From positions 4,154,001 through 4,218,000 of the forward strand of contig NZ_CP060034.1 of assembly GCF_023208195.1 (NCBI RefSeq): 64,000 nucleotides of DNA, read 5' to 3'. Shown here piece after piece: positions 11,751-39,738 of this stretch (position 1 is its first letter; every line of letters begins with the position of its first letter). Position numbers and translations under genes: made by a program. This DNA comes from Nocardioides sp. InS609-2. GTDB lineage: Bacteria > Actinomycetota > Actinomycetes > Propionibacteriales > Nocardioidaceae. The notes beneath the pieces are model-generated. The model was not told the origin of the DNA, did not search any database, and was given only the letters and a program-made list of their open reading frames with translations.

Positions 11751-11826
11751 GGGGCTGTGGCGCAGCTGGTAGCGCATCTGCATGGCATGCAGAGGGTCAG
11801 GGGTTCGAGTCCCCTCAGCTCCACCA
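11751..11826 (+). tRNA. tRNA-Ala (GGC)
   Basis: The 7-bp acceptor stem is GGGGCTG/CAGCTCC with one G-T pair, the discriminator is A, and the CCA end is encoded (11824-11826). The D arm contains AGCTGGTAGCGC. The anticodon loop ATGGCAT sits in a TCTGC/GCAGA stem and gives anticodon GGC. The T loop is GTTCGAGTC. The 3' end is duplicated imperfectly at 27662, marking it as the integration site of the island to its right. Confidence 0.97.
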
Positions 11827-35682: not shown

Positions 35683-36444
35683 TCAGCTGATCGTCATGCC
35701 ACCGTCGACCGGGAGTGTCTGACCGGTGATGTAGCCGGCAGCGGCCGAGGCGAGGAACACCACGGTCGCGGCCAACTCGGCCGGGTCGCCCTGGCGCCGC
35801 GCCGGCACCCGCTTCATCGCGAGGTCGAGGTAGCCGTCGGGGTAGGTGTCGGTCATCTCGGACTCGAAGAAGCCCGGCGCGATCGAGTTGACGCGGATGC
35901 CCTTGCGCTCGGTCCACTGTGAGGCGAGGTCGCGGGTGAGACCGTTGAGCCCGGCCTTGGAGGCGGAGTACGCCGCCTGCGGGAGGCCGCCGGTAGTGAT
36001 ACCTAGCACCGAGGAGATGTTGATGATCGACGAGCCGGGCTGCATGATGCGGCCGCACGCCTGGGCCATCCAGTAGCAACCGTTGAGGTTGACGTCGATG
36101 ACGCGGCGGAACTCGTCGGGCTGCTCGCGGGTGGCGGGCACCGCGGTGCCGATGCCGGCGTTGTTGACCAGCACGTCCACCCGGCCGAACTCCGCCATGG
36201 CCGCATCGACGAGCGACTGGCAGTCATCGACGGACGCGACGTCGGTGGCGACGGTGAGCACCCGGCGACCGGCGGCCCGCACCAGCTCGGCGGTCTGCTC
36301 GAGCCGGTCGACGCGGCGGGCGCCGAGCACCACGTGGGCGCCGGCCTCAGCCAGGCCCTTCGCGAAGGCCACGCCCAGGCCGCTGGAGGCGCCGGTGACG
36401 ATGGCGACCTTGTCGTCGAGACGGAACATGTCAGGGACGGTCAT
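35683..36444 (-). CDS. Short-chain dehydrogenase/reductase
   Basis: 253 aa classical SDR. The NAD(P) motif TGASSGLGVAFAKG, NNAG, catalytic Ser in NISSVLG and YSASK (Tyr and Lys) are all present. The C-terminal GQTLPVDGGMTIS is typical of FabG-like members. GAGGAGATCAG precedes ATG 36444. The substrate cannot be told. It overlaps a short upstream ORF by ATGA. Confidence 0.93.
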   Translation of the reverse strand: MTVPDMFRLDDKVAIVTGASSGLGVAFAKGLAEAGAHVVLGARRVDRLEQTAELVRAAGRRVLTVATDVASVDDCQSLVDAAMAEFGRVDVLVNNAGIGTAVPATREQPDEFRRVIDVNLNGCYWMAQACGRIMQPGSSIINISSVLGITTGGLPQAAYSASKAGLNGLTRDLASQWTERKGIRVNSIAPGFFESEMTDTYPDGYLDLAMKRVPARRQGDPAELAATVVFLASAAAGYITGQTLPVDGGMTIS

Positions 36445-36575
36445 CTGATCTCCTCGGGTGGTCCCACATCGGGTGGTGATGGTCGAAGGGCTCCAGGACG
36501 GTGCCGCCGAAGCGCGCCTCGGCTGCCCAGCAGATCGACGTCGCAGCACTCGCAGTTGGGACGCAGTTGCAGCAC
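36441..36575 (-). CDS. Short ORF, DUF1272-like N-terminus, coupled to SDR
   Basis: 44 codons from GTG 36575. The first 15, VLQLRPNCECCDVDL, match the start of the DUF1272 zinc-ribbon family. The remainder is Arg/Pro-rich and unlike it, so this is probably a truncated relic. A TAGAGT box lies 7 nt upstream of the GTG, and its stop overlaps the SDR start (ATGA). It may now serve as a coupling ORF for SDR translation. Confidence 0.4.
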   Translation of the reverse strand: MLQLRPNCECCDVDLLGSRGALRRHRPGALRPSPPDVGPPEEIR

Positions 36576-36705
36576 GCCCAGCACTCTAGGTGCTGACGAC
36601 GGGGCAGATGTCGGCCAGGGACTGACCGACACATCCCCTGACCACACCCTGACTCCACCCCGAGAACCCTTGGGCCGCGTCGTACGCCGTGGTTGAGTTG
36701 TCGTC

Positions 36706-37089
36706 ATGAGTGAGAACCCGTACGCCACCGCACCCGCTTCCGTCTCACCCGGCGAGGAGCGGACCCTCGGCGCCGTCGCGCACGCCGTGCCCCTCGTCGC
36801 GATGGTGGTCAGCGCCGGCCTGCTGGGCTTCGTCGGCTCGCTGGTGATTTACCTGCTCTACAAGGACCGCGGCCCGTTCGTCCGGGCGCACGCGGCCAAC
36901 TCGCTGAACGTGCAGATCATCACCGGCATCGTGCTGCTGATCTCGATCCCGCTGATGTTCGTGCTGATCGGCTTCGTGACGTACGGCGTCGCGCTGGTCG
37001 TCGCGTTCGTGCTGCACCTGCTGGGCGCCCTCAAGGCGCACCGCGGGGAGTGGTGGAACCCGCCGATGACGCCGCGGTTCGTGCGGTAA
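36706..37089 (+). CDS. DUF4870 membrane protein
   Basis: 127 aa. After a 15-residue polar start (PYATAPASVS), EERTLGAVAHAVPLVAMV begins the DUF4870 domain with three to four membrane segments. FVRAHAANSLNVQI is the family hallmark. It ends with a cytosolic PMTPRFVR. Function unknown. It is just upstream of the leuS leader region, which has its own promoter. Confidence 0.9.
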   Translation: MSENPYATAPASVSPGEERTLGAVAHAVPLVAMVVSAGLLGFVGSLVIYLLYKDRGPFVRAHAANSLNVQIITGIVLLISIPLMFVLIGFVTYGVALVVAFVLHLLGALKAHRGEWWNPPMTPRFVR

Positions 37090-37118
37090 CCGGGAAGGCA
37101 GTCGGGGAGCAGGCGCGG

Positions 37119-37124
37119 TAGCAT
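37119..37124 (+). promoter_or_regulatory. Leaderless -10 box of the leuS leader
   Basis: TAGCAT, then 6 nt (GAGTTC), then ATG 37131. The leader transcript should start at the leader peptide's own ATG. Confidence 0.6.
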
Positions 37125-37130
37125 GAGTTC

Positions 37131-37157
37131 ATGACGCAGCGCCTGCTCCTTACCTAG
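37131..37157 (+). CDS. leuS leader peptide (MTQRLLLT)
   Basis: ATG ACG CAG CGC CTG CTC CTT ACC TAG encodes 8 residues with three successive Leu codons, including CTT, which is rare in this GC-rich DNA. It sits between a promoter and a terminator upstream of leuS. Leu codons in a leader of a leucyl-tRNA synthetase gene are what ribosome-mediated attenuation needs: stalling when charged tRNA-Leu is short. Confidence 0.7.
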
Positions 37158-37213
37158 CCGCATCGACAAGCACACATCGATGCGGCTGCCCCTCGTCTCC
37201 GAGGGGCTTTTTT
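37156..37213 (+). promoter_or_regulatory. leuS attenuator: pause hairpin plus intrinsic terminator
   Basis: An 11-bp stem AGCCGCATCGA (37156-37166)/TCGATGCGGCT (37177-37187) starts inside the leader stop codon. It is followed at once by GCCCCTCG (37188-37195)/CGAGGGGC (37200-37207) and TTTTTT (37208-37213), a textbook intrinsic terminator 57 nt before leuS. I could not identify the antiterminator pairing. Confidence 0.8.
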
Positions 37214-37269
37214 GTGCCCTGACCGCCCCAGAGAATCAACGCCGCAGCGCAGCACACGAAGGACATGAG

Positions 37270-39738
37270 ATGAGCGAGCGAGACGAGCACCAGTCGTACG
37301 ACGTGGCGGAGGTCGAGGCCCGCTGGCAGCCCGTCTGGGAAGAGCTGCAGCCCTTCGCCGCCGACGACGCGAGCCCGCGTGAGAAGCGCTATGCGCTGAC
37401 GATGTTCCCGTACCCGAGCGGTGACCTGCACATGGGTCACGCCGAGGTCACCGCCCTGCACGACGTGATCGCTCGCTACTGGTGGCAGCGCGGCTACGAG
37501 GTGCTGAACCCGATGGGCTGGGACTCCTTCGGACTGCCCGCCGAGAACGCCGCGATCCGGGGCGGCGAGCACCCCGCGACGTACACATATGCCAACATCG
37601 AGACGCAGTTCGAGTCGTTCAAGAAGTACGCCGTGTCGTTCGACTGGTCGCGCCGGCTGCACACCTCCGACCCGGAGTACTACCGCTGGACTCAGTGGCT
37701 GTTCCTGAAGCTGCGCGAGCGCGGGCTGGCCTACCGCAAGAACAGCCCGGTCAACTGGTGCCCCAACGACCAGACGGTGCTGGCCAACGAGCAGGTCGTC
37801 GACGGCATGTGCGAGCGCTGCGGTGCCGAGGTGACCAAGCGCGAGCTGACGCAGTGGTACTTCCGAACCACGGAGTACGCCCAGGAGCTGCTGGACGGCC
37901 TGGACGACCTGCAGCCCACCTGGTCCGACAAGGTCATCAACGCGCAGCGCAACTGGATCGGCCGTTCCGAGGGCGCCCACGTCGACTTCGTCGTGGCAGG
38001 CCGCGACGAACCGGTCACGGTCTACACCACGCGTCCCGACACACTGTTCGGCGCGACCTTCATGGTCGTGGCAGCCGACGCCGCGCTGGCTGGTGAGCTG
38101 GTCACCGACGAGCAGCGTCCCGCGCTGGACGACTACCTGGTCGAGGTCCGCAAGGAGACCGAGATGAACCGGTTGTCGACCGACCGGCCCAAGACCGGTG
38201 TCTTCCTGGGCGTGCACGCGACCAACCCGCTGACCGGCACGGCCATCCCCGTGTACGCCGCCGACTACGTGCTGGCCGACTACGGCACCGGCGCCATCAT
38301 GGCCGTCCCCGGCCAGGACCAGCGCGACTGGGAGTTCGCGAAGGCCTTCGACCTGCCGGTCATCCGGACGGTCGAGCCGCCGGCCGACTGGGAGGGCGAC
38401 GCGTTCACCGGCGACGGCCCGGCGATCAACTCCGCCAACGACGAGATCGACCTGTCCGGCCTGGGGGTCACCGAGGCGAAGTCCACGACGATCGCCTTCC
38501 TGGAGCGTCAGGGGCTGGGTCGCGGCACCGTCAACTTCCGGCTGCGTGACTGGCTGCTGTCGCGCCAGCGCTACTGGGGTGCGCCGATCCCGATCATCCA
38601 CTGCCCGGTCGACGGGGAGGTGCCGGTGCCCGAGGACCAGCTGCCCGTCGAGCTGCCCGAGCTGCGCGGTGCCGACCTGAAGCCCAAGGGGACCTCCCCG
38701 CTGGGAGCGGCCACCGAGTGGGTCAACGTGACCTGCCCGGTGTGTGGTGGGCCGGCCCTGCGCGACACCGACACGATGGACACGTTCGTCGACTCCTCGT
38801 GGTACTTCCTGCGCTACCTGTCTCCCCACGACAACACCCAGGCGTTCGACTCCGCGCTGGCCGAGATGTGGGGCCCGTGCGACCTGTACATCGGCGGCGA
38901 CGAGCATGCCGTCATGCACCTGCTGTACGCGCGGTTCTTCACCAAGGCCCTGCGCGACATGGGTCTGATCTCCTGGGGTGAGCCGTTCTCGGCGTACCTG
39001 AGCCAGGGCAAGGTCATCAACAACGGCCGCAAGATGAGCAAGTCGCTGGGCAACGGCGTCAGTCTGGGGGACCAACTGGCGGAGTTCGGCGTGGACGCGG
39101 TGCGGCTGACCCTGGTCTTCGCGAGCCCGCCCGAGGACAACATCGACTGGGCCGACATGTCGCCGGCCGGTTCGCTGCGCTTCCTGCAGCGTGCCTGGCG
39201 GCTGTCCGGTGACGTCGCCTCTGCTGCTGGTACGTCGCCCGACGGCGGCGACGTCACACTGCGCAAGGTCACCCACAAGACCGTGCACGAGGGCGGGGAG
39301 CTGGTCGAGGGCCACCGCTTCAACGTGATGGTGGCCCGGGTGATGGAGCTGGTCAACGCCACCCGCAAGGCCATCGACTCCGGCTGCGGACCTGCCGACC
39401 CCGCCGTGCGCGAGGCCGTCGAGACGGTCGCGATCATGCTGTCGCTGGTGGCGCCGTACACCGCGGAGGAGATGTGGTCGCGGCTGGGCCACGAGCCCAC
39501 CGTCGCGCGCGCCGGCTGGCCGGTCGTCGACGAGGCGCTGTTGGTCGAGGAATCCGTGACCGCCGTCGTACAGGTGCGTGGCAAGGTGCGCGCCCGCCTG
39601 GAGGTCTCGCCCGACATCAGTGAGGCCGACCTGGAGGCGGCTGCCATGGCCGACCCAGCGGTGGTGCGGGCGATCGACGGCGCCGAGGTGCGCAAGGTCA
39701 TCGTGCGGGCGCCCAAGCTGGTCAACATCGTCGTCTAG
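37270..39738 (+). CDS. leuS: Leucyl-tRNA synthetase
   Basis: 822 aa class Ia synthetase. The HIGH motif is HMGH at 54-57 ([11 protein letters not shown]), and KMSKS is exact at 588-592. The CP1 editing domain is present ([15 protein letters not shown]). ATG 37270 follows GAAGGA; the frame is open from 37180, but that part lies in the attenuator. Expression is probably set by charged tRNA-Leu through the leader. Confidence 0.98.

Follow-up and report, generated by a model that had tools for sequence, protein, structure and literature searches.

A probable leucine attenuator with a probably leaderless leader peptide upstream of leuS in Nocardioides sp. InS609-2 and its actinomycete relatives

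The window, meaning the whole 64-kb stretch of DNA analysed here (G000:C1:4154001-4218000 of the 4.52-Mb single-contig genome of Nocardioides sp. InS609-2), carries leuS, whose product matches the NCBIfam model TIGR00396 (leuS_bact) at 911.9 bits (cut-off 548.4). The nearest named leuS loci are from Nocardioides, at 86% identity. A preliminary description of the DNA upstream of this gene had read a TAGCAT box 6 nt before ATG 37131, the peptide MTQRLLLT, a hairpin beginning in its stop codon and a terminator with six Ts ahead of leuS, all of which proved correct to the base. The features are as follows.

37119 to 37124, plus strand: -10 box TAGCAT, placed for a transcription start at 37131
Between TAGCAT and ATG 37131: six-base spacer GAGTTC, read from the sequence
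37131 to 37157, plus strand: leader peptide MTQRLLLT and its stop codon, probably leaderless, judging from the box and Leu-run mini-ORF conserved in the genus
37143 to 37151, plus strand: candidate regulatory codons CTG CTC CTT, matching CTT-rich runs in the genus
37156 to 37187, plus strand: hairpin 1, 11 bp, supported by fixed spacing to the Leu run and by covariation
37188 to 37213, plus strand: intrinsic terminator with a perfect 8-bp stem, 4-nt loop and T6, supported by the terminator script, covariation and fold
37270 to 39738, plus strand: leuS, leucine--tRNA ligase (TIGR00396), the putative regulated gene

The leader frame reads ATG ACG CAG CGC CTG CTC CTT ACC TAG. Hairpin 1 has the arms AGCCGCATCGA (37156-37166) and TCGATGCGGCT (37177-37187), its first bases lying inside the TAG stop, and is abutted directly (37187/37188) by the terminator, with arms GCCCCTCG (37188-37195) and CGAGGGGC (37200-37207) followed by T6 (37208-37213). 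From the T run to the leuS ATG at 37270 there are 56 nt; right after the T run, 37214-37219 reads GTGCCC here, and CATGTCC or CATGCCC recurs at this post-terminator position in many relatives. The combination of box, spacing, start codon and Leu run occurs once in the 64 kb and in none of 100 shuffles, and the fold of 37131-37213 (-39.4 kcal/mol, z -6.06) is equalled by none of 200 shuffles. The interval 36000-38000 holds one terminator-like site where chance predicts 0.4. At the leader every Rfam 15 family stayed below its gathering score, and the T-box covariance model found no match, the sole gathering-score hit in the window being a tRNA (11751-11823).

Is the arrangement conserved? The preliminary description had proposed aligning this leader in related genomes, and had read it as a leucine leader attenuating leuS; comparison across the genus and among named loci supports that reading. 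Regions upstream of leuS were obtained from 96 of 98 genus genomes (this one included) and 79 of 80 named loci, leaving out two genomes in which leuS was cut or had no true match (G004, G031) and one named locus starting inside leuS (L053). A script searched them for mini-ORFs (4-24 or 4-30 codons) that contain two or more Leu codons in a row and have TANNNT at -12 or -13. Such a mini-ORF precedes leuS in 85/96 genus genomes and 65/79 named loci, two sets that probably overlap in species and cannot be counted as independent; requiring three or more Leu codons lowers the counts to 80 and 62. As controls, the scan found none on the reverse strand or in the next 500 nt upstream (n = 96 and 77), and Markov sequences gave 0.05 per set. 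Among the 85 genus leaders, 50 start with ATG and 35 with GTG.

The scan missed 11 of the 96 genus regions and 14 of the 79 named loci. One named miss has the leader with its promoter beyond the contig end (L009), and another has the leader with its box at -15 (L065). Two more (L063, L070) show, by eye, a variant leader, MHGFSLDLA followed by a stop, in which the Leu codons are separated and the hairpin and terminator layout is similar. Eight of the 11 genus misses share a different arrangement, with TATCCT 12 nt upstream of the GTG that starts leuS (by eye):

L100, L101, L117, L119, L120, L128, L140 and L147: attenuator absent, box directly before leuS

At these eight loci the attenuator is gone and leuS itself appears, from the position of the box, to be leaderless. 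At several of them the upstream neighbour resembles an ABC transporter gene by eye.

Pooling gave 150 leaders, or 137 after removal of 13 duplicates. A terminator was detected by script in 133 of the 137, and pair tests started from these 133 after the other four were dropped (L148, L151, L054, L056). The GCCGC core of hairpin 1 lies 5 nt past the Leu run in 122/133 leaders. The stop codon is more mobile, coming one codon after the run in 42 leaders and four codons after it in 72; the early- and late-stop types differ in whether the triplet YAG has T or C (TAG/CAG; compare L083 with L084). Because the spacing is fixed while the stop varies, it is the distance from sensor codon to hairpin 1 that is conserved, and not where the stop falls. 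A ribosome stalled at Leu codon 2 or 3 would reach the 5' arm of hairpin 1. In alignment A1, which holds 65 of the 133 leaders picked for diversity, both helices covary: 97.6% of cells are paired, and two-sided changes occur in 8/14 pairs, including 5/7 modelled pairs of hairpin 1. None of 500 shuffles, which keep relatedness and are judged on a structure drawn from the same alignment, scored as high, and slid partners scored far lower. A stem closing both hairpins, formed by the codon after the Leu run and the sequence following the T run, looked suggestive by eye and was rejected: it scored 9.02 against 8.80 +/- 0.19, with 37/300 permutations as high, or 51/300 when one sequence was kept per downstream 8-mer.

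Where does the transcript begin? Selecting leaders on Leu run, stop and T run, with the box ignored, gave 74 distinct genus leaders. TANNNT lies at -12 from the leader start in 60 of them and at -13 in the other 14, and appears elsewhere between -60 and +9 only once, at -49. The base preceding the leader start is C in 89%. Neither a -35 nor a Shine-Dalgarno consensus is visible among the 74 leaders, of which 21 have an SD-like 4-mer. The leaderless genes of S. lividans are reported to carry the same TAnnnT box, and across start sites in that species it averages 6.3 nt upstream (PMC8079986). The leaderless start put forward in the preliminary description is thus supported by the box at -12/-13 in 74/74 leaders; transcription probably begins at 37131 and yields a leaderless leader, as the promoter position strongly implies.

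A perfect 11-nt inverted repeat, 37106-37116 / 37139-37149, spans the -10 box and the start codon. It suggests another account of the locus, in which a leadered transcript from upstream of 37106 would fold into three hairpins, the repeat forming the first, and the Leu ORF would be incidental. In this genome the repeat has no mismatch and would fold strongly if transcribed, but of the 133 leaders the window leader alone has a complement of at least 8 nt to its Leu-run stretch among the 45 nt that precede the start, and the -10 box is tied to the leader start in every box-blind leader. We consider this account very unlikely. As an upstream hairpin or operator the repeat was rejected, a match of at least 8 nt being found in 1/133 leaders, that of this genome itself.

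Within the Leu run, codon 1 is CTG in 62/85 genus leaders. At codons 2 and 3, CTC or CTT is found in 84/85 and 80/80 of the genus set (60/65 and 62/62 in the named leaders), and codon 3 is CTT in 74/80 of the genus set. CTC and CTT are decoded by the GAG isoacceptor. CTT makes up 129 of 254 genus run codons, against 0.9% (42 of 4772) of the Leu codons in the leuS bodies of relatives. Its rarity, asserted in the preliminary description, is borne out in four window genes, where CTT accounts for 2/226 Leu codons (ATT for 0/60 Ile codons). Rare or charge-sensitive leader codons have been discussed before, and rarity alone has been called an oversimplification (PMC1183508).

How far does the element extend beyond the genus? 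A covariance model of the leuS leader, R1, whose hit counts include sister leaders, had hits in 166/296 genomes and 80/114 genera of the class (E 0.01) and in 22/198 genomes across the phylum (E 1e-4). Among its best 30 class loci, 29 have a LeuS match. Twenty further loci, picked from 19 families, comprise 16 before leuS (in 16 families), three before cimA and one before ilvB, and each of the 16 leuS loci has a Leu-containing mini-ORF with TANNNT at -12/-13. Twenty weaker, mostly secondary R1 hits fall before cimA (12), ilvB (7) and leuA (1); four of these genes were named by NCBIfam and the rest by tblastn.

These sister leaders retain the layout with other codons. Of the genus cimA loci, 27/30 have it with Ile codons in a row, most often ATC ATC ATT; ATT closes the run in 25/27, and TAG follows at the hairpin. 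Among the three misses, a leader can be made out by eye at L271 and L286 but not at L287. The genus cimA boxes are mostly CANNNT at -12/-13, and a GTGGCA motif is frequent; in this genus set the start codon was picked with a preference for the box, so that its box positions are not independent evidence. In the wider set, a branched-chain codon run precedes cimA in 13/15 loci, with (T/C)ANNNT at -12/-13 in 11/15. The eight ilvB leaders retrieved with the leuS model all have mixed Ile/Val/Leu stretches, with (T/C)ANNNT at -12/-13 in 2/8, and the leuA leader of the wider set is MTNLLLT followed by a stop, with an LLL run and no box. The final sensor codon mostly ends in T in both the leuS and the cimA families, CTT for leuS and ATT for cimA. 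This NNT codon lies a few bases before hairpin 1. In this genome, two sister leaders were located through their genes:

L252, match 1055572 to 1056972, minus strand, outside the window: cimA leader MHHLFTTSIIIR and its stop codon, CAGCAT at -13; hairpin, terminator and T run by eye
L255, match 1083268 to 1084692, minus strand, outside the window: ilvB leader MRTDILVRTRRVS and its stop codon; hairpin, terminator and T run by eye

By eye, MRTDILVRTRRVS has no TANNNT at -12/-13. A search of this genome with the leuS model found no further leuS-type leader, its other hits having E 1.5 or worse, and no Leu leader was seen in the stretches of the genome that were inspected. A search of open-licence papers turned up no account of the cimA leader family, its one match being on a methanogen.

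The layout stays constant while the codons follow the pathway, which is the best evidence here that the event sensed is translation of those codons; we regard it as strong comparative evidence for ribosome-mediated sensing. Comparison likewise supports the leader, its promoter position, the codon run and its spacing to hairpin 1, the hairpin and the terminator. The classical traits of an attenuator are present, namely a run of cognate codons and an intrinsic terminator before a gene for the same amino acid. On these grounds we favour the view that leuS is controlled by ribosome-mediated transcription attenuation through a leaderless leader peptide, a view to which we assign a probability of about 0.82. 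RNA polymerase would start at 37131, the A of the leader ATG, and because the transcript would begin at that ATG, a 70S ribosome could load on its 5' end without a ribosome site. With ample leucyl-tRNA, the ribosome would clear the Leu codons and depart, hairpin 1 and the terminator would fold, and most transcripts would end at 37208-37213. When leucyl-tRNA is scarce, the ribosome would stall at CTC/CTT, its leading edge, placed from the size of the ribosome footprint, would cover the 5' arm of hairpin 1, and with hairpin 1 blocked the polymerase would read through into leuS. For this organism we infer leaderless transcription, stalling, readthrough and the response to leucine; that the leader senses leucine shortage via the ribosome is very likely.

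What would compete with the terminator? Base pairing between the 3' arm of hairpin 1 and the 5' arm or loop of the terminator looked suggestive by eye in single sequences, but found no support against controls, and no conserved antiterminator of this kind emerged relative to shuffled or swapped partners in tests that could miss weak, invariant or species-specific pairing. In the modelled stalled state, the 5' arm of the terminator makes 4.46 upstream pairs against 4.34 in shuffled sequences, and the fold is less stable than the shuffled one (-8.8 vs -9.7 kcal/mol). Over 115 distinct pairs, the hairpin-fold test gave -4.14 for true partners and -4.45 for swapped ones, with 100/100 permutations at least as good, and the duplex test gave -6.15 against -6.19. 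A focused test on 106 pairs was also negative (8.40 vs 8.54). Either the competing structure differs between species, or hairpin 1 itself may aid termination.

Must the Leu codons be the sensor at all? The leaderless leader and terminator could be real, with termination constitutive or set by general translation or by the speed of RNA polymerase. Consistent with this, codon substitutions in the S. coelicolor ilvB leader were reported to have no effect on regulation (PMC1262725), a result that calls for caution about codon sensing in the leuS leader, and the failure to find a conserved antiterminator points the same way. Against it, codon identity matches the downstream pathway in leuS, cimA and ilvB, and the run is built largely of otherwise rare codons. 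We judge a leader whose codons are not the sensor unlikely.

Alternatively, the Leu run could act as RNA, pairing with the leuS Shine-Dalgarno or the post-terminator region, as proposed for the LEU element of leuA, and would then control translation, not termination. The true pairings do score slightly better than their controls. The run with the post-terminator region gives -14.12 kcal/mol against -13.67 for swapped partners, with 0/50 permutations as good (shuffled runs, -12.32), and with the SD region -11.51 against -11.30, with 3/50 as good; the longest run match averages 6.0 against 5.82 nt, with 1/200 permutations as high. The excess is small, however, the longest matches are scattered, and the statistics ignore relatedness. 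Since such pairing also leaves the conserved hairpin and terminator unexplained, we give it very little weight, and attenuation of leuS by ribosome stalling remains the reading we prefer.

The leuS leader device is not new in kind, having already been described in Streptomyces. Attenuators of leuS were predicted in S. avermitilis and S. coelicolor in 2005 (PMC1262725), and S. lividans TK24 was reported in 2021, from 5'-end RNA-seq, to have a leaderless leuS leader, LeuL2 (MRAVRLLLSEPR), with a hairpin and U stretch (PMC8079986). R1 recovers exactly this peptide, MRAVRLLLSEPR, before leuS at one locus in a genome of the class (L212). Because of that prediction, that report and the exact peptide match, the window locus belongs to a known type, and the claim in the preliminary description that a leaderless leader before leuS is unusual gives way to these Streptomyces precedents. 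Like LeuL2, the window leader lies upstream of leuS with three Leu codons, a hairpin and a U stretch; LeuL2 is reported as leaderless, whereas here the leaderless start is implied by promoter position, and the window peptide has 8 residues, with its stop at the start of hairpin 1 and not four codons past the run (PMC8079986). The 2005 attenuators share the Leu-codon leader peptide and terminator, but an antiterminator hairpin is marked for them that finds no support in the present comparison, and that paper does not use the term "leaderless" (PMC1262725).

Other systems resemble it in part. The actinobacterial ilvB attenuators have a leader peptide, hairpins and a terminator (PMC1262725, PMC8079986), and ilvL is reported as leaderless in S. 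lividans (PMC8079986); they differ in their mixed codons and in the scarcity of the box among the eight retrieved here. The attenuator RNA rnTrpL of Sinorhizobium meliloti also has its 5' end at the ATG of its leader peptide, but serves Trp biosynthesis in a proteobacterium and is described as a classical two-structure switch (PMC7298713). The LEU element of leuA, in contrast to the window leader, has no terminator between leader and gene. For the Nocardioides leuS leader itself we found no paper in the open-licence literature; the nearest one counts terminators, and its main text has no leuS.

Why should the same layout recur before leuS, cimA and ilvB? We suggest, tentatively and as something that may well prove wrong, that they share one interchangeable actinomycete cassette. 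Its transcript would start at the leader start codon, two to three sensor codons would end in an otherwise rare NNT, hairpin 1 stacked on the terminator would set termination without a competing antiterminator, and a codon swap would retarget it among leuS, cimA and ilvB. Promoter evidence for such a start is strong for leuS, fair for cimA and weak for ilvB. If the cassette is real, a change of codons alone would retarget it between leucyl-tRNA charging, isoleucine synthesis and branched-chain synthesis within one genome, and a switch that works with no conserved antiterminator would add a novel form of attenuation.

The element reported in Streptomyces is one member of a broad actinomycete family, in which amino-acid sensing has strong comparative support. 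This genome, which carries similar RNA devices with Leu or Ile sensor codons, offers a natural experiment. It makes two points testable: that attenuation may proceed without a conserved antiterminator, and that NNT sensor codons may add sensitivity to starvation.
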